The translations under genes were made by a program, and so were the position numbers. The notes under the pieces are model-generated. The model did not search any database. It was not told the DNA's origin and saw nothing but the letters and a program-made list of their open reading frames with translations. Positions 21,788 to 39,630 of a stretch of 64,000 nt of DNA are shown in pieces. Within the stretch, counting starts at the first letter, position 1, and the number at the start of each line of letters is the position of its first letter. This stretch comes from Azospirillum brasilense. GTDB lineage: Bacteria > Pseudomonadota > Alphaproteobacteria > Azospirillales > Azospirillaceae. The DNA lies in the NCBI RefSeq assembly GCF_022023855.1, contig NZ_CP059449.1, forward strand, positions 310,001 to 374,000. The letters run 5' to 3'.

Positions 21788-21822
21788 GTGCTGCTCCCAC
21801 AAGAAATCGGATGGAGCAGCAC
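21788..21822 (-). promoter_or_regulatory. RBS-sequestering hairpin before the aspartic protease
   Basis: In the mRNA, GTGCTGCTCC (21822-21813 read on the minus strand) pairs perfectly with GGAGCAGCAC (21797-21788), loop 15 nt. The 3' arm contains the Shine-Dalgarno GGAG and ends directly at the AUG. Such a stem should block initiation until opened by temperature, a ligand or an RNA. The remaining gap to 22123 is AT-rich near 21840-21930 and holds no clear gene. Confidence 0.6.
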
Positions 21823-22123
21823 ATTTCCTCAGATCAAATGAATATTCAAACATCTCGTCAATACGCACGCATTTGTATTATTATATCTTCCTAGGAAAAA
21901 AGGAGGATGAGACCAAGAATGCTTGATGGCTTATATTTTCACGGACCACGATGACGATTCGTCCTTCAGTTTATTGCCCCCAAGAAAAGAAGCGGGCGCC
22001 GACACGCGCCATCCGACCGGACGCTTCCGCCGCATGGACAACCGACCCCGCCCCCGGCATCATCGCTCACCACCTCGGGATGCATCCCGAAGGCCGCACC
22101 ATCGAAAAGCGGGGGAAGCGCGC

Positions 22124-23042: not shown

Positions 23043-24947
23043 ATGCCGATCCGCATGTTGCCCGACACGCTCGTCAACCGCATCGCCGCCGGCGAGGTGA
23101 TCGAGCGGCCCGCCGCCGCCGTCAAGGAACTGGTGGAGAACGCCATCGACGCCGGGGCCACCCGCATCGACGTGGTGGTGCGTGATGGCGGCAAGTCGCT
23201 TATCACCATCACTGACGACGGCTGCGGCATGGGGCCGGACGATCTGGCGCTCGCCGTGGAGCGGCACGCCACCTCCAAGCTGCCGTCCGACGACCTGCTC
23301 GACATCCGCTCCTTGGGCTTCCGCGGGGAGGCGCTGCCCTCCATCGGTGCGGTCAGCCGCCTGACCCTGACCAGCCGCCCGCGCGGCGCCGACAGCGCCT
23401 GGGCGTTGACCGTGGACGCCGGCCTGAAGGGCGCGCCGCAGCCCCCGCCGCGCTGGCCCAGGGCACCCGCGTCGAGGTGCGCGACCTGTTCGCCGCCGTG
23501 CCCGCCCGGCTGAAGTTCCTGAAGGCCGCCCGGACCGAGTTCGACCACATCGGCGACTGCATCGAACGGCTGGCGATGGCCCATCCCGGCGTGGCCTTCA
23601 CGCTGGACGGCGACAACCGCTCGACGCTGCGCCTGTCGGCCGGCGCAGGGCGACCTGCTCGACGCCCGGCTGACCCGGTTGGGCGCCCTGATGGGCCGCG
23701 ATTTCCAGGACAACGCCGTGCCCGTGCAGGCGGCGCGCGAGGGGGTGACGCTCGCCGGCTGGATCGGCCTGCCCACCCTGCACCGCCCCACCGCCCGCCA
23801 CCAGCATCTGTTCGTCAACGGCCGCCCGGTGCGGGACAAGCTGATGGTCGGCGCGGTGCGGGCGGCCTACGCCGATTTCCTGCCGCGCGACCGCCACCCC
23901 ATGCTGGCGTTGTTCCTTGACCTCGACCCGCAGGAGGTGGATGTGAACGTCCATCCCGCCAAGGCGGAGGTGCGGTTCCGCGACCAGGGCCTGGTGCGCG
24001 GGCTGATCGTCGGCGCGCTCAAACACGCGCTGGCCGAGGCCGGGCATCGCGCCTCGACCACCGTGGGGTTGGCGACTCTGGGTGCGCTGCGCCCGGAGAG
24101 CAGCGAGATGGACGCGGACGGAGCCATTCCATTGCCTTCCCCCCTGCCCTACCGCAGCCCGGGGCACCAGCCGGCGCAGTCCTGGGGCGGCAGCTACGGC
24201 TCCGTCGTTCCGCGCGGGCTGGCCGACCGGGCGACCGCCTTCCAGGCGCCCCATCAGGCGCCGCTCCCTCCCTTGCAGGGCCGCCTCGCCGGCTGGCAAG
24301 CCGCGCCCGCCGCGCGCCCGCCGGACTACTCGGCGCAGGCCGCCGCCGCTGCTCCGCCGCTGGACAGCCACCCGCTGGGCGCGGCCCGCGCCCAGGTCCA
24401 CAACACCTACATCGTCGCCCAGACCAGCGAGGGCATCGTCATCGTCGACCAGCACGCCGCCCATGAGCGGCTGGTCTATGAAAGGATGAAAACCGCCCTC
24501 TTGGAGGGCGGCGTGAAGCGGCAGGCCCTTCTGATCCCAGAACTGGTGGAGTTGGACGAACCATCCGCCAACCGCCTGCTGGGCCGCGCCGCGGAACTGG
24601 CCGAGCTGGGCCTTGCGGTTGAGGGTTTCGGCCCCGGCTGCGTCCTGGTGCGCGAAGTGCCCGCGCTGCTGGGCCAGAGCGACGTGAAGAGCCTCGTCCG
24701 CGACCTCGCCGAAGAGTTGGCGGAGCTGGGCGATGCGCTGTCGTTGAAGGAACGGCTGGAGCATGTGTGCGGCACCATGGCCTGTCACGGCTCCGTCCGC
24801 GCCGGACGGTCGCTCAGCGTCGAGGAGATGAACGCCCTGCTCCGCCAGATGGAGGCCACCCCCCACAGCGGCCAATGCAACCACGGCCGCCCGACCTATG
24901 TGGAGCTGAAGCTGTCCGACATTGAGCGGCTGTTCGGGCGCCGCTAG
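23043..24947 (+). pseudogene. mutL: DNA mismatch repair protein MutL, frame-disrupted
   Basis: MutL links MutS recognition to strand nicking. The N-terminal GHKL ATPase is clear ([34 protein letters not shown]). The C-terminal domain has the endonuclease motif [12 protein letters not shown] plus CHGS and CNHGRPT. As written, the frame breaks twice: about one base is missing near 23,440-23,450, and one G is extra near 23,655-23,662 (tcggccggcgcag). The middle part ([19 protein letters not shown]) is therefore in another frame. A stop is met at 23513. The breaks compensate and all three segments stay conserved, so sequencing error or very recent mutation is likely. The stop codon is at the edge of the island insertion. 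Confidence 0.85.
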
Positions 24948-25020: not shown

Positions 25021-25557
25021 GGAGACGGCTCGCTTCGGCGTCGCGCCAGCACTCATTGGATGGGCGCTGACCGGCCTCCTCTCGCCGCAGATCGCGCTAT
25101 GAAACGGGCGGCGCGACGAAGGGAGCAAGCCGTCATGAGAATGATCGGCGAGTGCCCCGCCAACGGGCCGATAGGCAAAGGAATTTATCTGCAACGGTCA
25201 GCTTGCTGGCTGGGATGACGGGGAAGCGCCAACCAAATCGAGCGGCGGCAACAGACCGTCATGCGTGATTGAGCCCCTCCCTGTGAGCAACCGCACTGCC
25301 CAGTGCAGAAGCAAGATTCACACACGAATCCGCTCGCCAATCTCGAGTTAACTCTAAAGCAAAATTCTTCGTGCTTCAGCGCTGTCAATGGACCAATGAA
25401 TGAGAAAGCAACTCAACGCTTTGATTAGAAATTATTTGCCAACACCATCAACAACAGTTGATCATTTTGAGTTAATAATATTCAATTGAGTCTTTGGAAG
25501 AAATTGTTGGCGAGGCCGACCCATTACCGTGGGGAAAATCCTGAATATTCAACGGAT
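25021..25557. other. Gene-free segment at the left of the island
   Basis: About 540 bp with no convincing gene. The first 340 bp are moderately GC-rich with only short frames. From about 25,370 to 25,550 the sequence becomes clearly AT-rich, unlike the surrounding genome. Confidence 0.6.
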
Positions 25558-26368
25558 CTAGGGCCTGTTAGCGCTTGATCCAATCGAGGGCGGCGGCGAG
25601 GCAAAGGACGCCCGTGAAGAAGTTGGCAGTTTTCTCGTAGCGGGTGGCAATTGCCCGCCACTCCTTGATCCTGGCCCAAAAGCGCTCGACGAGGTTGCGG
25701 TTGTTGTAGATCCACGCCGGACAGGCGACCGGCGCATCGGTCTTTTTGTGCGGGATCGCCGGTCGTGCGCCGGGCTCCCAGATCCGCTGACGGAAGGCGT
25801 CCGAAGCGTAGCCACGGCCCCCCCACCACCCAGCCGGGAACCTCCGGCAGGATCGCCAGCAGAACGGGGGCGAGCGGCAGTTCACGGGCTTGGCCAGGCG
25901 CCAGGGCGAAGCCGAGCGCCGGCCCACCGCCATCCACGATCACGCAGGCTTTTGTGCCCCCGCTGTGCTCCAGATCCCCTTTTTTCGACGCGCCCGCCGC
26001 CTTCGCGTGCGCTCGGATATTCGTGCCGTCCAGGACGGTCATGCCGAGCGCGACGCCGCGCTGCTGGGCCAGATCGAGCAAGCGCTCCCACACGCCCAGC
26101 CGCGCCCAGCGGATGAAGGTCTGCGCCGCCATCCACCACGGCCCCAACTCCGACGGGATGGCGCGCCACTTGGCTCCGTTCGTATGCCGCCAGAGGATCG
26201 CCGTAACGGTGCGGCGCAGATGCTGGGGTGGTGTCTTGCCGCGCGGGCGGCAGGCTTCGATCAGCGGATGCAGAATCGCCCATTCCGCGTCCCTCAGAAC
26301 CTCGTTTCCGTACTCAACTCCCATCCCGAACAGATGGGCACAGACATCAAGCGCTAACAGCGCCCTAG
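25558..26368 (-). mobile_element. IS5-family insertion sequence (IS427-like), copy 1
   Basis: Terminal inverted repeats are near perfect: GGCCTGTTAGCGCTTGAT at the left, and the right end read inward is GGCGCTGTTAGCGCTTGAT. Both ends are bordered by CTAG, matching the short CTAG/TA target preference of the IS427 group. Length is about 810 bp with one transposase. Confidence 0.8.
25568..26324 (-). CDS. IS5-family transposase, frameshifted
   Basis: DDE transposase in two overlapping frames. The N-terminal part has LRDAEWAILHPLIEACRPRG and the first Asp in TVLDGTNIRAHAKAAG. Near 25,820 the frame shifts at a run of seven G. The second part has RGYASDAFRQRIW and NNRNLVERFWARIKEWRAIATRYEK, containing the catalytic Glu. 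The split at a homopolymer may be a programmed slip, as in several IS5-family elements, or an inactivating mutation or sequencing error. Confidence 0.85.
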
Positions 26369-26480
26369 AGCTGCCAAAGTAGTGCTAGGTAAATAGAAAA
26401 TATAGGCTGGAAATCCGTAGCGCTTTTTTGGGCGTTGCGTTCGGTGTTCCTTCCTCACGCTGTTCGAGTCGGCCTGACAC

Positions 26481-27719
26481 CTACTCCGGGTCGTACACCA
26501 CCTCCAGACGCTCGGCGAAGGCGCCGCGCTTGCGCAGATGGCCGTCCGGTCCGGGGGCTCGCCGCAGCCCGCGCCGCTCCAGAAGTGGCTTGAGCATCAT
26601 GGGCAGGATCGCGTGGTTGATCTGCAAGCCGAAGCAGGTGTGGAGACCATGCCCGAAATGCATGTACTCATGGGCCAAGCGACGTGGGTTGAACCGCCTG
26701 GGATCGGGCACGCGCCGTTCGTCCATCATCGCCGAGCTGAAGGCAACGAGCAGAGTCGCCCCTTCGCGCACGTTGGTGGCCCGGCGGCTGCCGGCCGCGA
26801 TGAGCTCGTCCCTCACCGCAACCCGCGGCAGTGTCGGGGCGAGCGGGTCAAAGCGCATGGCCTCCAGTACGTATCCGAGAAGCAGCGCGTCGTCACCAGC
26901 CAGCGCTGCCTTCCGTGCGCCCTCCAACTCGGCTGGCCGGCGCAGCAACTGCTCGAGGGCTTGGGGCACGACCATCGGTGGCTGCGGCGGTCCACCCACC
27001 ACGAAGCCGGTCAGGGCGGCACGGATCTGGCCGTCGGAGAAGCCCGGATCGCCGCGGCTCTGGCGGTCCAGGCAGCGCCCGAGAACGTCGTCCCCGAACG
27101 CGCCGGAGGCGCGGCGGGCTTCGATCAGCCCTTGGATGTGGGCGCGCAGGGCCGGTGCGATCGCGTCGACCTCGGCGCGCAGATCCGGGTCGTCGCCGGG
27201 GTCGGCAAACTGGAATTCGAAGAGCCGGGACGCCCAGATCCTCAGATCGCCGTCCGGCGGGTCGGACACACCGAAGTACCGGCCCAGGACGGCGAAGGTG
27301 ACTTCGCGGACGAGGTCGTTCACCACTTCAATGCGGCCGCCGCCCGCCCGCACCGCCTCGGCGGCGAGACGCCCAGCCTCCGCAGCGAGCGCGGGAAGGT
27401 CGTCGGAGCGGACAACCGTCCTCATCGCCGCCGTGTCGCGGCGGTAGTCGGACGTGTCGCGCATCCCCAGAAAGAACGGCTGCCCGCCCATGATGACGTC
27501 GAGCTTCCTCGCGTAGGGAACCGCGAAGGCGTCGTCGTTCAGGAACACCTCGCGCACGTCATCGTAGCGGGTCACCACGACCGTATCGCCAATGCGCAGA
27601 ACCGGCGATACGGCGCGCAGGACCCGGAACACCGCCGGAAGGCTTCGCATCATCCAACCGGCGAGCGCGCCTTTCAGCCCGCCGGGCCGCCCCCTGGGTC
27701 CGACGCCTTCGACCCGCAT
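26481..27719 (-). CDS. Cytochrome P450 lacking the I-helix acid-alcohol pair
   Basis: A 412-residue soluble P450. The heme-thiolate loop FGHGLHTCFG (Cys362) and the ExxR pair EAMR (Glu286-Arg289) are intact. The I-helix, normally AGxDT, reads TGFVVGGPPQPPMV (residues 237-250), so the acid and the threonine for O2 activation are absent. P450s of this type (CYP152, CYP74, the Ppo P450 domain) work on peroxides rather than O2 plus a reductase. No ferredoxin or reductase gene lies nearby. The start is 2 nt after the DyP stop, so the two are cotranslated. A role in converting a hydroperoxide made by a partner peroxidase is inference. Confidence 0.9.
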   Translation of the reverse strand: MRVEGVGPRGRPGGLKGALAGWMMRSLPAVFRVLRAVSPVLRIGDTVVVTRYDDVREVFLNDDAFAVPYARKLDVIMGGQPFFLGMRDTSDYRRDTAAMRTVVRSDDLPALAAEAGRLAAEAVRAGGGRIEVVNDLVREVTFAVLGRYFGVSDPPDGDLRIWASRLFEFQFADPGDDPDLRAEVDAIAPALRAHIQGLIEARRASGAFGDDVLGRCLDRQSRGDPGFSDGQIRAALTGFVVGGPPQPPMVVPQALEQLLRRPAELEGARKAALAGDDALLLGYVLEAMRFDPLAPTLPRVAVRDELIAAGSRRATNVREGATLLVAFSSAMMDERRVPDPRRFNPRRLAHEYMHFGHGLHTCFGLQINHAILPMMLKPLLERRGLRRAPGPDGHLRKRGAFAERLEVVYDPE

Positions 27720-27721
27720 GA

Positions 27722-29266
27722 TCACAGGCTTTCCAGATAGGCCAGTGCCCGGATGCCGGGAAGGAAGAAATACTCCCCGCCCACCAGCTCGATGTAGGTT
27801 TCCACGTCCACGATCCTCCGCAACGGGTCCTGGGGGATCGTCAGCGGGCCGTTGGGACCGACCAGCGGGTCCCTTTCCTGATAGAGCGTGGCAAAATTCG
27901 GGTTGAGGAGCCACGTCTGCTGAACGAACTCGAACTGCCGGGCGATGTCCGTGTTGAGGCAGATGAAGAGGAGGCCGCGTTCCTCCCCATCGTCGTGGCG
28001 CGGGTCCGCGATCACCCTGCCGAACTTGCGGCCGCGGCGCATGATGCGGTGGTTGTTCGCCGCCGCCCGAAGCGTCTCAGCGGAGTCTTCGTCCGGGGCC
28101 AGCCCGTCCCGCGGATTGGCGCGCCGGACGTGGGAGCCGAGGGGGCACCCGAACCCGTGCGGGTCCCGGGAACGGAACCCGAAGCGGTTGTCGCCCTCCG
28201 CCACCGAGGTTCCAACGGGGCACAGGAGGCGGCCGTCCCGGTCCCGCCCGACGATGCGCTCCGCCAGCCACTCCGCCGTGACCTGACCAGCGTCGCCGCC
28301 CTGCCGTCGCAGGATGGCGGCCTGATTGTCCAGCGAGGTCCAGAAGCGGCCGACATCCTGCCGGAGTTCGCGCACGACCATATAGGTGCCGTTCAGGCCG
28401 AGATCGCGGAATCCCTCGGGTGCGTTTCCGGGATCCAGGAGTTCCCAGCGGGCCGCGCTGTCCGTTGCCGGAACCTGTGGACCCGGCGCGATCTCCGCAT
28501 GGGCGTTCCTGTAGCCGATCAGGATCTCCCCGAGGGGGATCTCGTTCCAGGGATCGTGGCCGGGCGGCCCGTCGCGCCCGTTGTCGAGGTATGGCAGCGG
28601 CTGGGAGACGCCGTCGGCGAAGCCGAAATGCTCGCGCACCTTCCCGCACTGGTCGGGTTTTATGTCCAGTTTGATCTCGCGGACGATCGCGACCTTTTGG
28701 GCCAGAAGCGTTCCGCGGGCCTCCTCCGCGTATCGGTCGAGGTCCGCTTCGCTGCGGTGGTAGACGAGGAGCAGGGCATGGACGGTGGCCGGCGTCTCCA
28801 GCGACGTGGGGGTGTTTCCGCTCCACTGCGGCCCGCCGTCGACGACGGTCGGCCCGTCGTCGCCCAATCGGCGGCGGCGGTTCTGCTGGTGCATGCCTTC
28901 CCGGAAGGGCAGCGAAAAGGTCCTGAGCGCATCCTCGCCGAGGCCCATCGCCGCCAGGCCGGTGCTGGTAAAGGCGATGGCCGCCGCCTTGTCGACACAG
29001 ACCTTCGGCTCGACGATCGGACGCCCGTCGGTGATCGGTGCCACGGCGCGCAGCGACGTGAGCCAGCCGGACTGCGCGTGCGTCAGGTCCAGGAACAGGG
29101 CCCGAGCCCAGGGCAAGGTACCGTATCCGCTGTAGACCAGACCCTGGACCTCGGCCCACGCGTCCGTTGCAAGCCCCCAGCCGTGCGTGGAAATGGCATC
29201 GCGGTCGACGTCGCACTCCCGGCCCGCCGCCACCCCGGCGGCCGGCGCTACAGGTCCCGAGCCCAT
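27722..29266 (-). CDS. DyP-type heme peroxidase
   Basis: A 514-residue member of the dye-decolorising peroxidase superfamily. The GxxDG motif is GFADG (215-219, catalytic Asp218). The heme-ligand block is CPLGSHVRRANPRD (His379). HRIMRRGRKFG follows, matching long class C/D-type enzymes. There is no Tat or Sec signal, suggesting cytoplasmic action. AGGAGGG precedes ATG 29266, and this start overlaps the end of the upstream gene by 19 nt, while P450 starts 2 nt after the stop. The protein is long for a DyP; the N-terminal 50 residues are not recognised. Confidence 0.92.
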   Translation of the reverse strand: MGSGPVAPAAGVAAGRECDVDRDAISTHGWGLATDAWAEVQGLVYSGYGTLPWARALFLDLTHAQSGWLTSLRAVAPITDGRPIVEPKVCVDKAAAIAFTSTGLAAMGLGEDALRTFSLPFREGMHQQNRRRRLGDDGPTVVDGGPQWSGNTPTSLETPATVHALLLVYHRSEADLDRYAEEARGTLLAQKVAIVREIKLDIKPDQCGKVREHFGFADGVSQPLPYLDNGRDGPPGHDPWNEIPLGEILIGYRNAHAEIAPGPQVPATDSAARWELLDPGNAPEGFRDLGLNGTYMVVRELRQDVGRFWTSLDNQAAILRRQGGDAGQVTAEWLAERIVGRDRDGRLLCPVGTSVAEGDNRFGFRSRDPHGFGCPLGSHVRRANPRDGLAPDEDSAETLRAAANNHRIMRRGRKFGRVIADPRHDDGEERGLLFICLNTDIARQFEFVQQTWLLNPNFATLYQERDPLVGPNGPLTIPQDPLRRIVDVETYIELVGGEYFFLPGIRALAYLESL

Positions 29267-30918
29267 AGGGTGCCCTCCTCTTTGGTCAGGGAACGCCGGC
29301 GCAACCCGTCGGCAACGCGCGCGTGGCGTTCGATCTGGTCCACGGTGTAGTCCTTGTAGGCGCTGTACCAGAACAGGCTCACCGTCATGGAATGGCGGGC
29401 CCAGGCCTTGAACTTCCGGCCTTGGGTCGCCCCATCCAGCAGCAGGAAGCGCGCGGGCGGGAAACCCGTGGCGTTGCCCCACGCCAGTGTGAGACCGGAA
29501 TGCGCCTTCTCGATGAAATCGTCGAGATAGCTCTCCCAACTGCCGTCGAAGTTGCTGAAGAACATCAGCCGACCGCCGTTGTCGATGAGCGCCCAGTGCG
29601 CGAAATGAATGGTCCGCATGCTGCCCAGATACCCACGCCGCGCCCACTCGGTCACGCGCAGCACGAGCCCAAGTCCGCGCAGGCCGACGCGCAGCAGCAC
29701 CGCACGCAGCACCCCGGGCTTGACGAGGACAAGGCTCCCCATGTGGTTCTGGGCGATGTGATCCTCGCGCTCCATCATCGCCCGCAGTTTCCCCTCGTCG
29801 AGGCGGGGATGGTCATGCGACGCGTCGCGCGCTTCCAACCGGCGCAGCCACCACAGGATCGCGAGCGCACTGGCGGGCACGCTCGCCAAACCGGCGCCGA
29901 GGACCTGGGCCGACGCGCGGAAGATGTCGCCGAATCCGGCGCCGGTCAGCGGCGCCACCACCGCTGCGGCGGCGGCTGACGGAATGGCGAGATAGACCCC
30001 GATCACGGCCACGACACCGGCCGAGCCCTTGAGAGCGGTGACGAGGCGCGAGCCAGCCGTCGGGCGTGGGCGCGCATCGGCCGGCGCCGCGCCGTCCGAC
30101 GTGCCGAAAAAGCGGAGCAGGTCGCCGAGATCCCGGATCGACGCCGCGAACGCCGCAGCCGCGACGAGGGACAGGAGAACCGCCACCCACCACGGGCGGA
30201 GCATGAGGCCGAGCAGCACCCCGGGAAGCGACAGGGCGAGAAGCAGGAGGGCGAGGAAGCCGCCGAGCCGCAGCCAGTCGCTCCGGTTCTCGTGGGCCGG
30301 AATGCGGGCGGGCGCCGGCTCGTCGAGCCAGGGGAACGACGCCAGGAGCGCGCCACGAAGGTCGGCGTGGATCGCCGTTGCGCTGGTTGCGGAGCGGTAC
30401 GGATTGGGGGCGGTTCTGTCGGCGTCCGCCAGGATCGTCCGCGCGGCATGGAAGAGATCGGCCTCCCGCAGGATGCGGTCACGGTCGAGGCCACGGTTTC
30501 CGAGGTGGACGATCAGGGGCTGGAAGCTGTGGCCCTCCAGCAGCGGCGCGATCGGCTGGCGCGAGTCCGCCGCGACGACGCGGTCGAACAACGCCCCGGT
30601 CGGGCCGGAGGGCCTTTCGCAGAAGCGCAGGATCGCGCGGAGATCCTCGCCGACGGCCGCCTCGAGCTGAGCCCAGAACGGGCCGGGCGGTCCATCGAAG
30701 TTCGTTTCGATGACGAGGATCGGATCGTAACGATCGTCTTCGAACACGCTGAGCGCCATGAAGTGCAGCAAGGGGACCCGGACCTTCAGCCGCCCGTATT
30801 TCTCTCCCTGCGGCCCGACAAGGCTCTCTTCGTCCTGCCGCAGTTGGACGATGCGGGCGACGAGCATGTCCTTGCTGTCGGGCTGGACCTCGAAGACGGT
30901 GGAAAGCACTGACTGCAT
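29248..30918 (-). CDS. Membrane protein with duplicated flanking domains, unknown function
   Basis: A 556-residue protein. Two related soluble domains flank a membrane region. The first (residues 30-120) contains LHFMALSVFEDD and VIETNFDGPPGPFW. The second (about 430-540) contains IHFAHWALIDNGG and MFFSNFDGSWESYLDDF, followed by RKFKAWARHSMTVSLFWYSA. Between them are about four hydrophobic segments (for example LGGFLALLLLALSLPGVLLG). The shared HF-N-FDG pattern shows an internal duplication. Translationally coupled with the DyP gene (19-nt overlap), it probably serves as its membrane partner. Function not recognised. Confidence 0.75.
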   Translation of the reverse strand: MQSVLSTVFEVQPDSKDMLVARIVQLRQDEESLVGPQGEKYGRLKVRVPLLHFMALSVFEDDRYDPILVIETNFDGPPGPFWAQLEAAVGEDLRAILRFCERPSGPTGALFDRVVAADSRQPIAPLLEGHSFQPLIVHLGNRGLDRDRILREADLFHAARTILADADRTAPNPYRSATSATAIHADLRGALLASFPWLDEPAPARIPAHENRSDWLRLGGFLALLLLALSLPGVLLGLMLRPWWVAVLLSLVAAAAFAASIRDLGDLLRFFGTSDGAAPADARPRPTAGSRLVTALKGSAGVVAVIGVYLAIPSAAAAAVVAPLTGAGFGDIFRASAQVLGAGLASVPASALAILWWLRRLEARDASHDHPRLDEGKLRAMMEREDHIAQNHMGSLVLVKPGVLRAVLLRVGLRGLGLVLRVTEWARRGYLGSMRTIHFAHWALIDNGGRLMFFSNFDGSWESYLDDFIEKAHSGLTLAWGNATGFPPARFLLLDGATQGRKFKAWARHSMTVSLFWYSAYKDYTVDQIERHARVADGLRRRSLTKEEGTLWARDL

Positions 30919-31168
30919 GTGTCTGCGCCTCGAATGTCGGTGGTGCCGCGAAGCCCTTACCATTTCGCCGCGTGGCGAACCGTGCCCCGGCACCGGGTTG
31001 GGGAGCGGCTCCCGGAGATGGAGGTCCTGGCGTGGCAGCGGGATTGCGTCCTTGACCCGGCTCCCCACGGCCGCCGATGCGCACCGCGGCACAGCTTGAT
31101 CCGAACGCATGGCGCTGTCTGCATCGCTGGCCATCCTCCCGTCTTGCCCTCGGGTTGCCGATGTCGCA

Positions 31169-32716
31169 TCAGCTCTGCCCGGCGCGGCCGGTCAGCACAC
31201 GATCGATCGGCACAAATCCGGGAATTGGGGGCGCGGGCACAGCCTTGCGCGATCCGCTGGCCGCTTTCTGGTTCTGCTCCTGCACGGCCGCTTCCCGTAC
31301 GACCAGGAAATCGCACATGCGCTGGCGCAGACCCTTTCGCGGGTCCCCAGCACCAATCTGCGCCTGCTTTTCTAAGCACCTTTTCGCATCGGACAACGTC
31401 TCAGCGACATTCTGTGCGAGTTCCCGAGGTGCCGACAGTTCGAGAAGGTCGTTGCAGAAGTCCATGACATCCGCGACATCCCTGGCGTCCTGCGGCAGCA
31501 ACGCGTTCTCGGCCGGAAAAACGAGGCTCGTACCGGCTCCGACAGCCAGGGGCCGCGGGAACTGGGACGACAGGGAGGTTCCACCCAGTGAACCGATGGC
31601 GAGCGTCGTGTGGCCGCCCGCCGCCTTGCCGGTTTCCCCGCCCGTCACGCTCGCGAGCAAGGCATTGACCGAGGCGCGGACACGGGCTGCTTCGCTGGTT
31701 TCCGCCGCAGCCAGTGCTTCGGTTTTGCCGGTCGGCAGGCTCGGCACAGTGGGAGCCTGCGGCTGGCCTTCCAAGACGCTTGTCGCATGGATCGCGAGAC
31801 GGAGCGCCATCTCGGCGCTTCGGGAGAATTGGTACTCGACTTTGCCGGCGTAGAGAACGCGTGTGGCGATCGCGACCGACATTCCGTCGCGGATCTTCGC
31901 GAAATCTCCCCGGCACAGGTGCTTCGTCCCCTCGGGCCAGCGTCGCGCCATGATGCGCACGACCGCACCGGGACGCACGGCCGTATCGGCAACGACCAAC
32001 CGACGCAGCATGTCCATCGCGATAGGGAGCTCAAGTTGAAGTTGCTGGAGATCCTTCAGCTCGATCGTCAGCGCCACGTTGCTGCCGCTGGCGAATCCCA
32101 GATTTGCGCCGAAGTTGCCAAGCAGGCCGGATGCGCCGACCTGCGCCTCTGTAAGCCGGGCCGCGGTGAGTTTCGGAATGCTTGCATGACCCAGACGAAA
32201 ATCGCTGGTGCTGTCCGTGGCGTCGGCGAGACGGATCGATGAAGGGAACGGTCGATTGTCTTGCCAAGCCGCCATGATCATCGTGCAGGGGCTGGACGCC
32301 GGTGATGCAATGACCGTCGTCTTCTTGGCATCAACCGTCTTCTCGGAAACGGTGGCCTTGGCCTCCCGGTTCTCCGTCGCCACGCTGCGCGGTTCGGCGA
32401 AGGCTATGAATAGCCTTTCCTTCTGGCTGTCGCAGAGTCCCCGCGCCACCTCGATCTTGGGAGTCCGGGCAATCCGTACGAGATCGAAGTTGCCGTCATC
32501 GCGCGACGTCGGCGCTCCCCGTGTGTTCAGGAAAACGTCTCCGACCATGACGTCCTCGTCGAGCGGAAAGAACGCGAACATGGACTGGCGCGCCATTGCA
32601 TTGGTCCATTGCTCCTCAATGTCCAACTCGGGCAGCGTTGGCGTGCCGCAGCCTATAAGTCCTCCAACGCACAGACCTATAGTAGAGACGTTCGAAAGCA
32701 TTCTTCTGCCTTTCAT
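31169..32716 (-). CDS. Lipoprotein of unknown function
   Basis: A 515-residue lipoprotein with signal MKGRRMLSNVSTIGLCVGG and lipobox LIGC (Cys23). A very strong Shine-Dalgarno (GGGGGAGGGGG) precedes ATG 32716. The mature protein has an Ala/Ser-rich middle part and coiled-coil-like stretches (LKDLQQLQLELPIAMDMLRR), with no domain I recognise. It ends in a Lys/Ala/Pro-rich tail. It lies 250 nt before the duplicated-domain membrane protein on the same strand. Periplasmic or outer-membrane location is inferred. Confidence 0.75.
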   Translation of the reverse strand: MKGRRMLSNVSTIGLCVGGLIGCGTPTLPELDIEEQWTNAMARQSMFAFFPLDEDVMVGDVFLNTRGAPTSRDDGNFDLVRIARTPKIEVARGLCDSQKERLFIAFAEPRSVATENREAKATVSEKTVDAKKTTVIASPASSPCTMIMAAWQDNRPFPSSIRLADATDSTSDFRLGHASIPKLTAARLTEAQVGASGLLGNFGANLGFASGSNVALTIELKDLQQLQLELPIAMDMLRRLVVADTAVRPGAVVRIMARRWPEGTKHLCRGDFAKIRDGMSVAIATRVLYAGKVEYQFSRSAEMALRLAIHATSVLEGQPQAPTVPSLPTGKTEALAAAETSEAARVRASVNALLASVTGGETGKAAGGHTTLAIGSLGGTSLSSQFPRPLAVGAGTSLVFPAENALLPQDARDVADVMDFCNDLLELSAPRELAQNVAETLSDAKRCLEKQAQIGAGDPRKGLRQRMCDFLVVREAAVQEQNQKAASGSRKAVPAPPIPGFVPIDRVLTGRAGQS

Positions 32717-33591
32717 GCCCCCTCCCCCACACGTCACTTTGAAGGTTTCCAGGTTTTTGTACGAAGCTCTGGAGCAGCCTCTTATGCTGCGCGGAGCAAG
32801 CGCGCCTAGAGAGGCAGAACAGCGGGATTTCTTTCCAACCCGCCAAGCGCCAGAGCGGATTGTCCTATGCACGGCAATTCATTTTGATGATCTATTCAAG
32901 AATAGAAGCAGCTTTTATCTTTAACAATCAAGACAAACCTGATTGATAAAAATATATACGCATAAATCAAGTTCTATCTTCAGCCTTTTAAATGAGAATG
33001 CCGCAGGAATTGCCGAAGTTTTGCAGATTCTACTAAGTCCACACTTGCTGAATTGGAATAAAAATAATATACCAGCCGCCAATTGTTCCGTAAGCCAATC
33101 TTGCATTTGATAATATATCGCCAGCAATTCGCTTAACGGAGTATATCCTAAAGAAATTCCGAACCTGCATACTACCGTATGCCAATTGCAAAAAGGCTCC
33201 AAGCTCAAAAATGACTGAACCCATGCGAGGCTTCTTTTCAATTACCCAATGATCGACGGCATGACCTGAGCATTGGCCTTATTTCGAACTCCGAAGCAAT
33301 CTCTCAGGCGATGATCGGCAGCGTGCCAACCAGGTTTAAAAAAGACTCTTCCCGGTGCTGACGCCCGCAGAATGGACGGTGCCCCCCTACCCGGCTGGCC
33401 CGACGGCTGTTGACGATGCTCAGCCATTACCTGGACGTCGTTACCTGAACGGCCATCCGGCGCAGCCCCCGCCGCAGCTTGAAAGCGCATCCCGCGCGGC
33501 GCCGGCTGGGATGGCCCCGCCACGGACAAATTCAGTGAAACCCTCAAATCCCTACGGCGTATGCCACCGAGGACGTGTCTCATCCGGACGG
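32717..33591. other. 875-bp spacer with an AT-rich core
   Basis: The part at about 32,880-33,320 is strongly AT-rich compared with the genome. It contains two overlapping minus-strand frames (106 and 63 codons) without good ribosome sites or recognisable products. The part at 33,340-33,590 returns to high GC but holds only shadow frames. A promoter for the lipoprotein operon probably lies here. Confidence 0.5.
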
Positions 33592-34914
33592 TTAATGCGT
33601 GTCGGGCTCGCTCCTCCCGGACGGTTGCGAGGGAGCGATCAGGGACGGCGCGGCCCTGCCAGCATCCGCCTTCGTGGCTCGCATGACAAACCCATCGAGC
33701 AGGTCGAAGATGTATTGGACCGAATACCCCCCAACGAAGGCCAGGAGACCCAGGGAGAGCTTGAGATCGCCGATATCGCTGCTCCCGGGCTCGAAAATGA
33801 GGCTCGCCAAGCCGCCGAAGATGAGGCCGAGCATCGGTCGCAGCCAGACGAGGATTCTCTCCCGGCTGTCGAGGGTCCACTCTTCCAGGTGGGTCGCCAA
33901 GCGGCGGAAGACAAAGATCACCGCGCCGATAAAACCAAGCAACGTCGGTATGCCGTAGTTCGACATGCCCGCGAGCATCGCCTCGGTTCGGAGTTCCGTC
34001 CGATCCCAATCCGACGTCAACCGCCTCACGAGCTTTTGCAGCTCCTGCGTTGCGTCGCCGCCGGGCGGGCTCGGATCGAGGTTTCGGTACAGCAGCGCGG
34101 CCTCGTCGCTCATGATCCGGTCGATCGACGGCCTGAAAACGAGATTTGGGATGAGAAAGAACCGATCCGCGGTCCGGTTCCAGACCTCAAGCTGCAAGTA
34201 CGTAAGTTGCCTTTTCCGCGCGAGGTCGGTCGCGCGGTCGCATACGCCATTCTGCATCGCGGACAGGCCTGGAGACTTGCTGCCGCATGACGGCCTCTCA
34301 CTGTTGCCTTCCGGAGGCTTGGAACCGACTTCCGGGAATGCCTGGGCGGTGAGCAAGTGTATGGTGGTCTGTGCCGAGGCGAGTTCGGTCAGCCGCTGAA
34401 GGATCAGCCGACCCGTGAAGACGTGGTGCAGCAGGAGCATCGCGCCGAACACCGCAAGCAGCCCAAGGGCGCACAAGACGATGTACATCCGTTTCAGCCA
34501 CTTGGCGCGCCTTGTCCGGGAGAGTCTGCCGGGAGCGTCGTCGCGGACGTCTCCGCCCCCATCGACATAGGCACGGGTGAACCGGATCGATTCCACCGTG
34601 GCAGGACGGGCGATGTCGGCAAGCTGGTCGATGGCCGCAAGGAGGACGGCCCAGTCCTTGGGCCTCGCGTGGATCTCCGCGGGTGTCCTCCGCAGGATCG
34701 CCAGGAGTTCTTCGGTCGTCCAACTCGCGCATCCGTTTCGCGCGCCTGGTCCCTCCTGATAGCTTGGTTCCTTGCGCTCGGAAACGAAGTTGAGGAGCAG
34801 CACGGCGTCCAGCCGGGCCTTCTCGATTTCCTCCAGGAGGACATCCTCCTCGGCCAACATCGATGCATTGTCGGGTCCGCCGCGGTCCTGCGGAGGCATT
34901 TCTGAACCGTCCAT
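33592..34914 (-). CDS. Multi-pass membrane protein, unknown function
   Basis: A 440-residue protein. The first 190 residues are soluble and acidic at the start. A membrane segment YIVLCALGLLAVFGAMLLLH is followed by an extracytoplasmic loop of about 140 residues with two Cys. Three more segments near the C-terminus include IPTLLGFIGAVIFVF and LVWLRPMLGLIFGGLASLIF. The C-terminal group resembles pore or scaffold segments but no family was recognised. ATG 34914 is chosen for GAGG 6 nt upstream; in-frame ATGs at 34929 and 34944 are possible. It follows the heme peroxidase by 175 nt. Confidence 0.7.
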   Translation of the reverse strand: MDGSEMPPQDRGGPDNASMLAEEDVLLEEIEKARLDAVLLLNFVSERKEPSYQEGPGARNGCASWTTEELLAILRRTPAEIHARPKDWAVLLAAIDQLADIARPATVESIRFTRAYVDGGGDVRDDAPGRLSRTRRAKWLKRMYIVLCALGLLAVFGAMLLLHHVFTGRLILQRLTELASAQTTIHLLTAQAFPEVGSKPPEGNSERPSCGSKSPGLSAMQNGVCDRATDLARKRQLTYLQLEVWNRTADRFFLIPNLVFRPSIDRIMSDEAALLYRNLDPSPPGGDATQELQKLVRRLTSDWDRTELRTEAMLAGMSNYGIPTLLGFIGAVIFVFRRLATHLEEWTLDSRERILVWLRPMLGLIFGGLASLIFEPGSSDIGDLKLSLGLLAFVGGYSVQYIFDLLDGFVMRATKADAGRAAPSLIAPSQPSGRSEPDTH

Positions 34915-35089
34915 GGCCACCTCGCCCATTCCGGATGGCTCCATCTCATTCGGCCATCCCACTCGTGTCGTCCCCGCGGATGGTCCGCCAGACCGTGCCG
35001 GGATGGGCAGCGGCCTGAGCGGTGGATGCGCGGAGAAGCCGGCGCGCGACCGGGGCAAGCGTCGGTCACGCCTGCCCGGCAGCGACCTC

Positions 35090-36700
35090 TCACACAGTTG
35101 GCGCCTGCGACAGGTTGGCCGGGTCGTCGACGGGGCTGAGCAGTGGCTTCATGGTCTCCTCGTCGGTTCCGTCGGGAACACCGCTCGCGATCCGGATCAA
35201 GTCGGCGAAGCCGAACCTCCGGTCGGCGCCCTCGAGGGCAAGTCCCGTGATCGGCTCGCCGAAGCGCCACGTTGGATCGCGGCTCAGGATGCTCTGCGGA
35301 TCACCCTGCATCATGCCTATGAAGGTCTCGGCGACGATCAGGCTGCCGAGCGGCCCAAGACGCCGCCCTCCCTGCCGGATCTGAGCCTCCTTCAGGACGT
35401 AGTACCAGAGCGGCGTCCGCAGGTGCAGGCCGAGCTTGGCGGCGACGGCGCCATCGTCGCCGGACGATGCAATCTCGTCGGCCGCGAGCGGTTCCACCCC
35501 CGTGAAGCGGACGACGTCCTGCGCCGCAGGCAGCATCATCTTGACTCCACGCCGCAGGTTCATCACGGCAAGGCTCCGGTCGGCGCTCGCGTCGCCTTGC
35601 CCGACCTCGCCCGGTTTCCCTTTGAGCCGGTGCAGCGCCGGCGACAGGTAAGGGTCGATTGTCCGCGTCAAATTGAGCCTGAAGCCGTCACTCTTGTCGG
35701 TGGTTCGGAAATCGACGTACCGCCGCCAGTCGATCACCCAGTCGCTCGGCAGCGCGACCGCCTCGCCCGGCATGCCGATCACGCCCGACTTTCCGGTGAA
35801 GCGGAAGAAGACGTCCAGCGAGGACCCGAAGGTCTCGGGACGGAAAACCCGATTGTGGCTGTAGTCCTGGCGCACCATGGTGTGTCCAAAGCGATAGGCG
35901 GCCACGGAGAACTCGACGGGAATGTACGGCTGGGCGAACCTTCCGAAGGTCTCGAACCGGAAAAACCTCCTCCGCTCGATCGCCGCCGCGAGGTCGTTCA
36001 CGTCGCAGATTCTTGCCAGGAAGTCGCGGATGACCATTGCTTGGTACAGTTCGACGACAGCGCGCCGGGCGGCGGCGAAGAGATCGTCCTTCCCGACGGT
36101 CCCCTCGAGGCGATCCACCATGGCGTTGTGGAAGCGGAGGAAGGCAACATGGGTCTGCGCGACGAGCAAGTTTTCGTCGTTCCGCTCGTCGCCGATGATC
36201 GCGAGCCCCTGGGCGTTGCGCGGCAGGTCGTGCTGGAGACCGGATCTGACTTTGGGGTCGCCGCCGCCCACGTCCGTCAGACCGACCAGCAGCTTCGCGG
36301 ACCCGGGGCTGTGGCGGTCGTAGAGCGATGGATGAACGCGCGGACCCAGTCCGTAGACGCTGTCGAGGTCGAGCCGCGGCGTACGGAAGTTCTCGACCGA
36401 GGAGGGGTCCTGGACCGTCTCCATCAAGGTCGTGGTGTCCAGCGTGACGTCGTGGTCAATGAACTGTCCGAGGTAGGTGAAGCCCGCGGGGATGTGCGCG
36501 TTGTCCCCGGCTCCCGGAGCGGTGCCGCCGTCGACCATGGACAGGCCGAGTTCAACCAGTTGCTCGTCCGGCGGCGCAAGCGGCACCGCCAGTTCCGGAA
36601 ACATCCGGCCGAAGCGTCCGGCCCGGAAGGTCACGCCGGTCGGGGGTACGTTCCTTTCCCGAACCGCGTGGCCATGAAATCCCTCGTCGCTCTTGCCCAT
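35090..36700 (-). CDS. Animal-type heme peroxidase (peroxidase-cyclooxygenase superfamily)
   Basis: A 536-residue protein with all key elements of animal heme peroxidases. The distal His/Ca site is GQFIDHDVTLD (His83). A Ca-loop-like LDLDSVYG follows at about 111-118. The distal Arg/Glu block is GDERNDENLLV (Arg173, Glu176) with THVAFLRFHN, and the proximal His is in YRFGHTMVRQDY (His273). No signal peptide is visible, so it is probably cytoplasmic. Bacterial members include fatty-acid dioxygenases and halide peroxidases; the substrate cannot be read from sequence. It is the first gene of the minus-strand cluster, divergent from a LuxR regulator. Confidence 0.93.
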   Translation of the reverse strand: MGKSDEGFHGHAVRERNVPPTGVTFRAGRFGRMFPELAVPLAPPDEQLVELGLSMVDGGTAPGAGDNAHIPAGFTYLGQFIDHDVTLDTTTLMETVQDPSSVENFRTPRLDLDSVYGLGPRVHPSLYDRHSPGSAKLLVGLTDVGGGDPKVRSGLQHDLPRNAQGLAIIGDERNDENLLVAQTHVAFLRFHNAMVDRLEGTVGKDDLFAAARRAVVELYQAMVIRDFLARICDVNDLAAAIERRRFFRFETFGRFAQPYIPVEFSVAAYRFGHTMVRQDYSHNRVFRPETFGSSLDVFFRFTGKSGVIGMPGEAVALPSDWVIDWRRYVDFRTTDKSDGFRLNLTRTIDPYLSPALHRLKGKPGEVGQGDASADRSLAVMNLRRGVKMMLPAAQDVVRFTGVEPLAADEIASSGDDGAVAAKLGLHLRTPLWYYVLKEAQIRQGGRRLGPLGSLIVAETFIGMMQGDPQSILSRDPTWRFGEPITGLALEGADRRFGFADLIRIASGVPDGTDEETMKPLLSPVDDPANLSQAPTV

Positions 36701-36849
36701 GCCGCAACCCTTTCGTAGATGTCCCAAAGTGAAAGGGCATCGCCATTCGTCGAGGCGCGATGCTCGTCTGATCGCCATAAGCAAAACAGCCTAAGATCTT
36801 GCCATTGGCGAGTTACTCAGACGTTATCCTCAGATTCTGTTCCTTGCGC

Positions 36850-36884
36850 CTCCCAAATGGGAGGATATGGACAAATATTTGTCA
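36850..36884. promoter_or_regulatory. Two palindromic operator candidates in the LuxR/peroxidase spacer
   Basis: CCTCCC-AAAT-GGGAGG (36850-36865) and the perfect 14-bp palindrome GACAAATATTTGTC (36871-36884) lie 6 bp apart. They fall in the 253-bp divergent region, about 70-100 bp before the LuxR gene and 150-185 bp before the peroxidase gene. The surrounding sequence is AT-rich and promoter-like. LuxR-family dimers bind such dyads, but binding by this protein is inference. Confidence 0.5.
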
Positions 36885-36953
36885 GGCCGGTAGATTGTTT
36901 TTCATCACAGTTATTATCACTTCGCATAACTCACGCTGAATACGGGGGTATGC

Positions 36954-38132
36954 ATGGACAGCGGCCTTCTATCCCATGCCATTGACTTGGCTTACTCTAC
37001 CGTGGATGACGTCGTTTCTTGGGATGAGTTCGTCAGGCAACTGCAACGGCTGCTGCGTGCTGACAGCGCTCTGTTGTTCACACCAAAGGGTACCGACGAC
37101 GCGACCGCAATGGATGTCCGGATCGGCATGGATGAGTGGTCGCTCAAGGCGTACCGCGACCACTACAAGGACCATGATCTCTGGTACCGCGGCTCGAAGG
37201 CCCGAAACCTCGACCGGCCGGGCACGGTCGTGGTTGGGGAGGAACTGGTGGACGAGCCGGAATTCAGGAGGTCGGAATGGTTCAACGATTTCCTGAAGCC
37301 CTCGCGGCAGTGCCGCCTCCTCGGCGTGAACCTGGAAGAGGGTTGGTCCGGAAGCGGCCCGGCGTTCCTGAATTTTTACAGAAGCGCTGAGTGCGATTCA
37401 TTCAACGAGGAGGATCGAGCGAACATCCTGCTGCTGCTGCCGCACATCCAGAGGGCTTTCCGCATGAAGACGGACCGGCTGCTAGAGCGCCGGAGAAGGA
37501 CGCTACTGGAAGGCACGCTCGCGGCGTGCGGCACCGCTTGCATCGCGATCGACCGCCGGATGCACCTCCTGCTGTGCAACGGCATGGCTTCCGACATCCT
37601 CGCGGAGAGGGATGGCCTGCATCTCGGTCGGGACGGCAGGGTCCTCTGCGATTGGCCGGGTGATGGCGAGCGAATGGCGGCCATGGCCGCAACCCTCCTG
37701 AGCACAGCGCGGACGGCCCAAGCCCACGAGACCAGCCAAGTGCTGCTGCGACGGCGTTCCGGGGGCGGCGCTCTCTTTGTTCAGGGAGGGCTTCTGAAGC
37801 GGATGGAGGGGGAAGACTGCGTCATCGCCACGCTCGTCGTCTTGAAGCCCGGAAGTCGGCGCACGTCCGTCCCCATCCTGCGGGGGCTCGGCCTGTCCGC
37901 CGCCGAGGCGCGCCTAGCTGCGATCGTCGGCTCGGGGTGTTCGCCGGTCGCCGCGGCCGAGGAGTTGCGTATCTCCGAGGGAAACGTGCGCACCGCCCTG
38001 AAGAAGATTTTCTGCAAGCTCGGCATCAACAGACAAAGCGAACTGGCAACGCTCGTAACCAGGATCGGCGAGGGGGAGATCCGCGGCAGGCCCGCGCTGC
38101 ATGGCGACGAGGCCGATGCTCATACCGGGTAG
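36954..38132 (+). CDS. LuxR-family transcriptional regulator
   Basis: A 392-residue regulator. The C-terminal LuxR helix-turn-helix spans about 310-375: GLSAAEARLAAIVGSG, then EGNVRTALKKIFCKLGINRQ. The N-terminal 290 residues do not show the AHL-pocket pattern; they look like a PAS/GAF-like sensor pair. A GGGGGT site precedes ATG 36954. It is divergent from the peroxidase cluster and is the obvious candidate controller. The recognised signal is unknown. Confidence 0.88.
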   Translation: MDSGLLSHAIDLAYSTVDDVVSWDEFVRQLQRLLRADSALLFTPKGTDDATAMDVRIGMDEWSLKAYRDHYKDHDLWYRGSKARNLDRPGTVVVGEELVDEPEFRRSEWFNDFLKPSRQCRLLGVNLEEGWSGSGPAFLNFYRSAECDSFNEEDRANILLLLPHIQRAFRMKTDRLLERRRRTLLEGTLAACGTACIAIDRRMHLLLCNGMASDILAERDGLHLGRDGRVLCDWPGDGERMAAMAATLLSTARTAQAHETSQVLLRRRSGGGALFVQGGLLKRMEGEDCVIATLVVLKPGSRRTSVPILRGLGLSAAEARLAAIVGSGCSPVAAAEELRISEGNVRTALKKIFCKLGINRQSELATLVTRIGEGEIRGRPALHGDEADAHTG

Positions 38133-38292
38133 GCTTTGCCGCCGAACCTGCGCCGATCCGTGGCATGACGATGCTACGGCCGCCTCTCCACGCTCACTGT
38201 CGAACGTTGCAACGCAACCCGCGTGATGCGGCCTTCCATGCCCACCACCCTCGGTTCATTCAGATCGTCGCAGATAATTTCTCCTGGGAAGC

Positions 38293-39400
38293 GACGTTGG
38301 TGCAAAAAGGCCGAGCTTGTGGCGTTCGGGAGGGCGAGCGGGTATAGAAGCGGCCGGCTGAATCCGAGACCCCGATGCCCCACAAGGCCAACGAGCCGAG
38401 CCGCCACAAGATCCCGAAGGCCCGGTACCGTGTGGAGAACCGGGCAGCCTACGATGCGGCACTGCGCCGGCGGGAAGACCTGACGATCTGGGTGACGCCA
38501 GAGGTGATCGCCGCGTGGACGACGCCCGTCACGGGGCGGGGGGGGCTGGCCTCCCCGATACTCGGACTTGGCGATCGAGGCCGGGCTGATGCTGCGGCTG
38601 GCGTTCGATCGGCCGTGGCGCCAGACCGAGGGTATGCTGGGCTCGCTCATGCGCCTGCTCGGCCTGAACCTGCCGGTTCCCGATCATACGACGTTTTCCC
38701 GGCGCAGCACCGATCTGGCCGTCGCGTCGGCGCTGGCCAGGACGAACGGGCCGGTCACCGTGGTCATCGATTCCACCGGGCTGAAGGTGTTCGGCCGGGG
38801 CGAGTGGCACCTGAAAAAGCACGGCGGCACAGCGCGCCGATGCTGGCGCAAGCTGCACCTGGCCGTCGATCCCGCCACCGGCGAGATCCTCGCCTCGGCG
38901 TTGACGGGCAACGAGGAGGGAGACGCCTCGCTGGTCGGTCCATTGCTCGACCAAGTCACGGGCCCGATCAGCGCGGTCCTGGCGGACGGCGCCTACGACG
39001 GCGAGCCCGTCTATCGTGCTGTCGCCGAGCGTGCGCCGGACGCCGAGGTGATCATCCCGCCGCGCGCGACCGCCGAGGTGAGCGACACCGCCAAGAGCGC
39101 GCCCACCCGGCGCGACCGCCACATCCAGACAATCAAGGAGCGTGGTCGGCTGGGCTGGCAGCGAGCCGTCCAATACGGCAGGAGATCGTTTGTCGAGGTG
39201 GCGATGCTTCGGTACAAGGTTTTGATCGGACGCAGCCTGCGCGCCCGCACTCTGTCCGCACAAAAAGCCGAAGCCAAGGCTGCCTGCGCCGTCATCAATC
39301 GCATGACCAACCTCGGCATGCCAACCTCCCGGAGGGTCGCCTGATCTCCATCGCCTCTAGGCGAAATCCGTCCGCAGGCTAAGTTCTGCACCAAAGTCGT
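38293..39400 (+). mobile_element. IS5-family insertion sequence, copy 2
   Basis: The left end contains GACGTTGGTGCA (38293-38304) and the right end read inward is ACGACTTTGGTGCA (39400-39387), an imperfect terminal repeat. The boundaries are approximate to a few bases. One transposase lies inside. This element is not closely similar to the IS5-family copy at 25558. Confidence 0.7.
38375..39344 (+). CDS. IS5-family transposase, frameshifted
   Basis: A DDE transposase of the group starting MPHKANEPSRHKIPKARYRV. The first frame runs about 55 codons and breaks at a run of eight G near 38,540. The catalytic part is in a second frame with VIDSTGLKVFGRGEW (Asp), VLADGAYDG (Asp) and RRSFVEVAMLRYK (Glu). 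Joined by a one-base slip, the protein is of normal length. Programmed slippage or a disabling error cannot be separated from sequence. Confidence 0.87.
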
Positions 39401-39442
39401 CCGGACCCTAAGGCGTTGGCGCATAAAGCGAGGATCTGAGTC

Positions 39443-39567
39443 GGGTCGGTCTTGTTGTGGAAGTGCCGGAATCAGGTCAGTCCACCTGTGGAAACCGGGG
39501 CATGACAATTCAGGTGAACTCAGCCTTTTCAGCAGGTTAATCGGGTCAGTCTATCTGTGGCCTGACA
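39443..39567. repeat. Right end of the island with three 18-bp repeats
   Basis: GGGTCAGTCTATCTGTGG (39543-39560) is the exact reverse complement of the left core. Related copies are AGGTCAGTCCACCTGTGG (39474-39491) and GGGTCGGTCTTGTTGTGG (39443-39460). The end finishes CCTGACA and is followed by TAGATT (39568-39573). Confidence 0.7.
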
Positions 39568-39630
39568 TAGATTTGTCGGACACCACCTACGCCCACCATG
39601 GCCGAGAGGACTGAGGTTCTGCCCGGTTCG

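Follow-up and report, generated by a model that had tools for sequence, protein, structure and literature searches.

The window analysed here, 64,000 nucleotides of Azospirillum brasilense DNA (contig NZ_CP059449.1, positions 310,001 to 374,000, from a genome of 7.39 Mb in 8 contigs), carries three adjoining genes for a membrane protein (MemA), a DyP-type peroxidase and a cytochrome P450. An earlier note had joined these to genes for a lipoprotein, a second multi-pass membrane protein (MemB), an animal-type haem peroxidase and a divergent LuxR-type regulator. Comparison of sequences across genomes indicates that the conserved unit is a three-gene operon of MemA, DyP and P450 and not the seven-gene cluster. 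The three products could act as one membrane-anchored, peroxide-driven, two-haem oxidation module, a reading in which our confidence is middling. Within the libraries and open-access literature covered, the module looks undescribed; a P450-DyP fusion or operon was not found in open-access full text, a search that had subscription journals and preprints outside its scope and is no proof of novelty. The genes of the operon are:

29248..30918, minus strand: MemA, undescribed membrane protein, first gene of the conserved operon (AlphaFold, VIA-align)
27722..29266, minus strand: DyP-type peroxidase, second gene of the conserved operon (PF20628; active-site motifs)
26481..27719, minus strand: P450, third gene of the conserved operon (PF00067; FGHGLHTCFG, EAMR)

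All seven reading frames of the proposed cluster were verified in the window at the coordinates claimed for them. The starts of DyP and P450 were corrected to the ATG codons at 29266 and 27719, respectively; MemA and DyP overlap by 19 nucleotides (nt), and 2 nt separate the end of DyP from the start of P450.

With MemA as the only query, a search through 84,980 species genomes returned 62 loci, at which DyP and P450 were called with profiles of our own making. The loci belong to Sphingomonas, Methylobacterium, Rhodobacterales, Acetobacterales, Reyranella and Qipengyuania, and to a Citrobacter, a Pseudomonas and an Acidobacteria record; Skermanella, of the Azospirillaceae, likewise has the operon, with a MemA 56% identical to that of the window. 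DyP lies directly downstream of MemA at 59 of the 62 loci and is followed by P450 at 49; the genes share one strand throughout, and the median spacings are -12 nt (MemA/DyP) and +18 nt (DyP/P450). Exceptions to the triplet include contig ends (L041, L054, L048), a P450 fragment (L011) and a P450 placed upstream (L023). Pairwise distances over 48 loci are correlated at 0.973 for MemA/DyP, 0.946 for MemA/P450 and 0.942 for DyP/P450, values to which shared genome descent contributes, while none of 999 permutations exceeded 0.34. No further gene recurs beside the triplet: among the 25 commonest of 132 neighbour families, none accounts for more than 3 of 97 neighbours. Joint recurrence of the six minus-strand genes had been put forward as a check on the cluster, and in the genome scan only MemA, DyP and P450 recurred together.

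MemA, MemB and the lipoprotein have no family match in Pfam or NCBIfam, as had been supposed for all three. For MemA, a PDB sequence search gave chance matches only, and none of 38 members scanned matched a curated ABM family. An AlphaFold model from 38 sequences (predicted local distance difference test score (pLDDT) 86, predicted template modelling score 0.83) places an ABM-like alpha+beta domain at residues 1-140, about four membrane helices within 208-363, and a second ABM-like domain at about 385-540. By VIA-align, the model resembles the ABM/SchA-like proteins WhiE-ORFI (Z 13.7, 227 residues spanning 1-521, root-mean-square deviation 4.0) and Abx(+)O (Z 10.8). The halves of MemA are modelled as pairing in a pseudo-dimeric alpha+beta barrel, and two ferredoxin-like halves forming such a barrel are the mark of the ABM superfamily. 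MemA thus shares the two-domain dimeric barrel fold of WhiE-ORFI and Abx(+)O; unlike them, it carries about four membrane helices that separate the halves, and its sequence matches neither. Its Pfam matches (Pectate_lyase22 and others; best about 0.02 except for matches of single members) were judged to be chance, and the RND pumps that headed the Foldseek matches, at template modelling scores of 0.13-0.15, were discarded as meaningless.

When 398 proteobacterial genomes were searched with a profile built from the C-terminal domain of MemA, 27 proved to contain relatives, which fall into three layouts. The first is a single chain, P450-[MemA]-DyP, of 1450-1540 residues in three genomes (L165, L166, L167); further fusions are WP_243252073.1 of Sulfitobacter pontiacus (1620 amino acids (aa), annotated 'cytochrome P450') and WP_011907039.1 from plasmid pNL2 of Novosphingobium aromaticivorans (1443 aa). 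NCBIfam detects both the DyP and the P450 end in these two proteins and in L165, and neither Pfam nor NCBIfam finds a reductase domain in the fusions. MemA-type matches on Rhizobium and Sinorhizobium plasmids point to proteins of this fusion type too. The second layout has separate ABM, ABM, DyP and P450 genes (L176, L178, L179), and the third an ABM-ABM protein with DyP and no P450 (L169, 3589-5580; L170, 8581-10326; L172). Standalone single-domain ABM relatives also occur directly upstream of DyP (L071, L072).

The surroundings of these relatives vary. A GMC oxidoreductase, a possible peroxide source, adjoins ABM-ABM/DyP in L169 and L170, and in a genome of the same genus (L072, 5004-10276) an ABM-DyP pair has as neighbours a hydrolase-like protein and one that bears the haem-c motif CxxCH. 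Next to the fusion in L165 is a TPR-containing class III cyclase, an annotated SARP-family regulator adjoins that of pNL2, and a 1064-aa class III cyclase-AAA-TPR protein (L171, 1442-4636, plus strand) lies near separate P450, ABM and DyP genes. The cyclase and SARP neighbours hint at signal-controlled expression of the module.

The P450 matches PF00067 at 30.5 bits (cut-off 22.8), and its FxxGxxxCxG loop (FGHGLHTCFG) and ExxR motif (EAMR) are conserved across the family. It folds overall like an ordinary bacterial P450, with P450BioI (Z 37.4) and CYP109E1 (Z 36.5) tied as closest. The acid-alcohol pair of the P450 I-helix protonates bound O2 (PMC9112060). The earlier note rightly read this pair as missing: GGPPQPP stands in its place (residues 242-248), and in an AlphaFold model (pLDDT 91.3) a helix at 229-242 is followed by a break at 243-246 and a second helix at 247-259. 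GGPPQPPM is found in 45 of 50 family members, and the acid position is also Pro in three fusions and in L176, L178 and L179 (GFIPT, GFAPT, GAIPT). CYP152 peroxygenases such as P450BSbeta and OleT likewise lack the pair, and peroxide use would be expected. CYP152 enzymes have Arg-Pro in its place, whereas the window P450 has Pro-Gln inside GGPPQPP and does not fit that class; none of them is among its best PDB sequence or fold matches. No 2Fe-2S ferredoxin motif occurs in window 18001-46000 and no redox partner recurs with the operon, which agrees with the earlier report of no electron-transfer partner.

The identification of the second enzyme as a DyP-type peroxidase holds as well. It passes PF20628 (C-terminal) at 24.1 bits (cut-off 20), carries the catalytic Asp in GFADG, the proximal His in GSHVRRANPR and the distal Arg region in NNHRIMRRGR, and its profile finds DyPs of known structure (8re3 at 3.5e-74). 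These residues, the GXXDG Asp, proximal His and distal Arg common to bacterial and fungal DyPs, are invariant or nearly so among 60 members. Unlike known DyPs, the window protein scores under the TIGR01413 cut-off (83.1 bits against 100.5, which fused relatives pass at 102.4 and 102.0) and is tied by operon or fusion to a P450 and a membrane protein.

In the module as we envisage it, the ABM-like domains of MemA would take up a hydrophobic substrate of membrane origin (lipid, terpenoid or quinone-like) at the membrane face, and MemA would dock both haem enzymes. DyP would form Compound I with peroxide and either carry out a first oxidation or manage the peroxide supply; the P450 would take peroxide or a substrate hydroperoxide, not O2 and electrons, for a second oxidation, isomerisation or cleavage. 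A membrane-derived substrate is suggested because MemA is membrane-embedded and is retained inside the fusion, and hand-over between the two haems because of the fusion itself. Peroxide use by the P450 would follow naturally, as had been proposed before, from loss of the acid-alcohol pair and lack of a recurring redox partner. A bolder version, held only tentatively, is that a new class of two-haem machine on an ABM-transmembrane-ABM scaffold, in one or three chains, passes a hydroperoxide or radical between its haems and is a convergent bacterial counterpart of the cyclooxygenase (COX) and Ppo cascades that draws on another peroxidase superfamily, making undescribed oxylipin-like or isoprenoid signals.

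The comparison with fungal DOX-CYP enzymes (linoleate diol synthase (LDS), Ppo), in which the product is handed over between a peroxidase-type haem domain and a P450 (PMC13049297), is instructive on both sides. Both systems join a haem peroxidase-type domain to a P450 needing no redox partner, occur as single chains, and have a P450 I-helix off the usual O2-activating pattern, without the acid-alcohol pair. The peroxidase domains differ: the fungal domain belongs to the peroxidase-cyclooxygenase superfamily and DyP to the peroxidase-chlorite dismutase superfamily. The fungal enzymes oxygenate polyunsaturated fatty acids. The module also has an extra ABM-membrane-ABM component and the domain order P450-MemA-DyP. 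What survives of the likeness to Ppo drawn earlier is the pairing of a peroxidase with a P450, DyP being the partner that is fused in relatives.

Several observations weigh against the proposed module. About eight MemA-DyP loci with room for a P450 show none adjoining (L023 having it upstream and L011 as a fragment), which means that the P450 is not obligatory, and a related ABM-DyP-P450 operon (L071) keeps a normal I-helix, GAVDTTN. A P450 that has lost the acid-alcohol pair need not use peroxide, and many Sphingomonas loci have, several kb beyond the operon on its downstream side, an open reading frame of about 105 aa (e.g., L016, 16243-16560) whose Cys pattern resembles that of 2Fe-2S ferredoxins. 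The ABM fold gives nothing certain on substrate, and the closeness of the P450 to the lipid-handling P450BioI and CYP109 is tied with many others.

Lipid-peroxide defence is the alternative that survives best, although we consider it on the improbable side. MemA would extract lipid hydroperoxides from the membrane, DyP would reduce peroxide and the P450 would serve as a hydroperoxide lyase or isomerase, with no specific product or signal. The sequence evidence is equally compatible with this, genes for biosynthesis, transport or modification do not recur next to the triplet among the 25 commonest neighbour families, and the distribution is patchy, mostly in alphaproteobacterial genomes. Such a defence should be genus-wide, yet full-length MemA was found in 2 of 45 genomes of the genus, and detoxification does not need as much as a docking protein and two haem enzymes dedicated to it. 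Rather less probable is a pathway that builds or modifies one particular hydrophobic small molecule, in which a normal O2-using P450 is served by a distant redox partner and DyP does the tailoring. Polyketide cyclases and cofactor-free oxygenases commonly have ABM-like folds, the P450 fold is ordinary and GMC oxidoreductases stand beside ABM-DyP in L169 and L170; against an O2-using P450 are the conserved loss of the acid residue, the broken I-helix, the lack of a recurrent redox partner and fusions without a detectable reductase domain. It is doubtful that the P450 has no catalysis of its own and serves DyP as a P450-derived scaffold or activator: its I-helix is unusual and it has a weak similarity to the P450-derived glycosyltransferase activators of TIGR04515 (45 bits, cut-off 343), but its own family conserves the Cys ligand, the haem-binding loop and ExxR. 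Anti-phage defence was rejected, with no PADLOC match for six proteins and no phage record with MemA.

The remaining genes of the proposed cluster, and the insertion sequence (IS) genes that flank it, are:

25524..26324, minus strand: IS5-family transposase, left flank, between mutL and P450 (NF033580, PF13340)
31169..32716, minus strand: lipoprotein, family unknown, lipobox LIGC; outside the conserved module
33592..34914, minus strand: MemB, second multi-pass membrane protein; outside the conserved module
35090..36784, minus strand: animal-type haem peroxidase (peroxidase-cyclooxygenase superfamily), PF03098; local neighbour only
36954..38132, plus strand: LuxR-type regulator, divergent; weak helix-turn-helix (HTH) match; inside the segment missing from genome G019
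38568..39344, plus strand: IS5-family transposase, right flank (NF033579); truncated at the G019 deletion junction

The animal-type peroxidase was correctly recognised, with its active-site residues: it matches PF03098 at 75.1 bits (cut-off 25), its probable start is an ATG near 36700, and GQFIDHD, GDERNDE and YRFGH supply the Gln/Asp/His, Arg, Glu and proximal His of the family. It has lacto-, eosinophil and myeloperoxidase and peroxinectin A as PDB sequence relatives, and shares GQFxDHD, GDxRNDE and RFGH with bacterial animal-type haem peroxidases (peroxicins, peroxinectins). Its place in a three-haemoprotein set did not hold. At every MemA locus and every ABM/DyP locus searched the protein is missing, also by profile search, and its relatives, which 28 of 385 alphaproteobacterial genomes carry, stand alone among unrelated genes in the 16 neighbourhoods read (L113-L114 in part); unlike them, 35090-36784 is a chance or lineage-specific neighbour of the module. 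The residue three before the proximal His is Arg (YRFGH; mostly [YF]R[FL]GH in relatives, the register being set by sequence only), where COX (YxWH) and LDS (YxW) have the catalytic Tyr (PMC13049297). The tyrosyl-radical residue of that position is therefore absent and the comparison with Ppo fails as homology. A split bacterial Ppo, in which this peroxidase would dioxygenate unsaturated fatty acids and the P450 rearrange the hydroperoxide, helped by DyP and the envelope proteins, has co-location of all the genes in the window and a PF03098 peroxidase with intact haem ligands in its favour, but is very improbable given that Arg and the absence of the peroxidase beside the module elsewhere and from the G019 cluster.

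Dedicated membrane and lipoprotein partners had also been proposed, of which MemA stands while the lipoprotein and MemB fall outside the conserved module. Neither the lipoprotein nor the LuxR gene was found at the 62 MemA loci, and MemB gave one weak 50-bit match there, on the opposite strand (L035). MemB has only distant relatives, and these match its C-terminal domain: of 385 alphaproteobacterial genomes 13 gave matches, counting that of the window, and those in the others mostly cover residues 310-435; among 61 genomes searched, the lipoprotein occurs elsewhere only in G019, a genome of the same genus. The lipoprotein gene lies 250 bp from MemA, and MemB 875 bp beyond it across a low-GC gap. 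The LuxR regulator has an HTH match (16.7 bits) under the cut-off of 23.5 and does not recur with the module. All four, the animal-type peroxidase among them, are local additions that may or may not be linked to the module.

The history of the region fits this division. G019, the closest relative, has lipoprotein-MemA-DyP-P450 at the equivalent place beside mutL, at 97% DNA identity to the window over 25959-31079 and 87% over 31155-33589. The alignment breaks at the end of MemB and resumes at window 39256-39570, and the segment absent from G019, 33590-39255, holds MemB, the animal-type peroxidase, the LuxR gene and the 5′ part of the IS5 transposase gene. Because that transposase gene is truncated at the G019 junction, the comparison favours a deletion in G019 rather than an insertion here. 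A second genome of the comparison, G040, is 95% identical through mutL and diverges at 25393, with the cluster untraceable in the 19 kb read. The two genomes with full-length MemA are that of the window and G019; remaining matches within the genus cover the C-terminal domain only. Given the segment absent from G019, the lack of the cluster in G040 and the flanking IS5 transposases, the region is, by these alignments, an accessory, IS-flanked island made up of two halves that are separable. Of the supposed seven-gene unit, the reading frames, the family assignments and the coupling of MemA, DyP and P450 are borne out; the unit as a whole is not.

Other features were seen nearby. The G019 cluster (L070, 1-6160) has as further neighbours what resembles a two-partner secretion pair, a filamentous protein of about 1452 aa with a 597-aa transporter, and an AraC-type regulator. 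In the window, mutL (23043-24947, plus strand) is split over two frames (156 and 422 aa), with extra bases near 23445 and 23641 compared with G019 and G040, and relatives have a single open frame; the gene is either a broken mismatch-repair gene or an assembly error. A 428-aa protein with DTG and DSG motifs (20582-21868, minus strand) is aspartic-protease-like.

What makes the locus interesting is the fusion, the MemA family and the break in the I-helix, and not the animal-type peroxidase. If the proposed module is real, an enzyme that couples a peroxidase to a P450 on a membrane scaffold arose independently in proteobacteria, with a natural O2-independent P450 bearing a new I-helix motif and a membrane-protein family without prior description. 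Module carriers include cultivable Sphingomonas, Rhizobium-type and Novosphingobium strains, making the reading directly testable, and it would give a function to many proteins of 1500 residues labelled just 'cytochrome P450', 'DyP' or 'hypothetical'.

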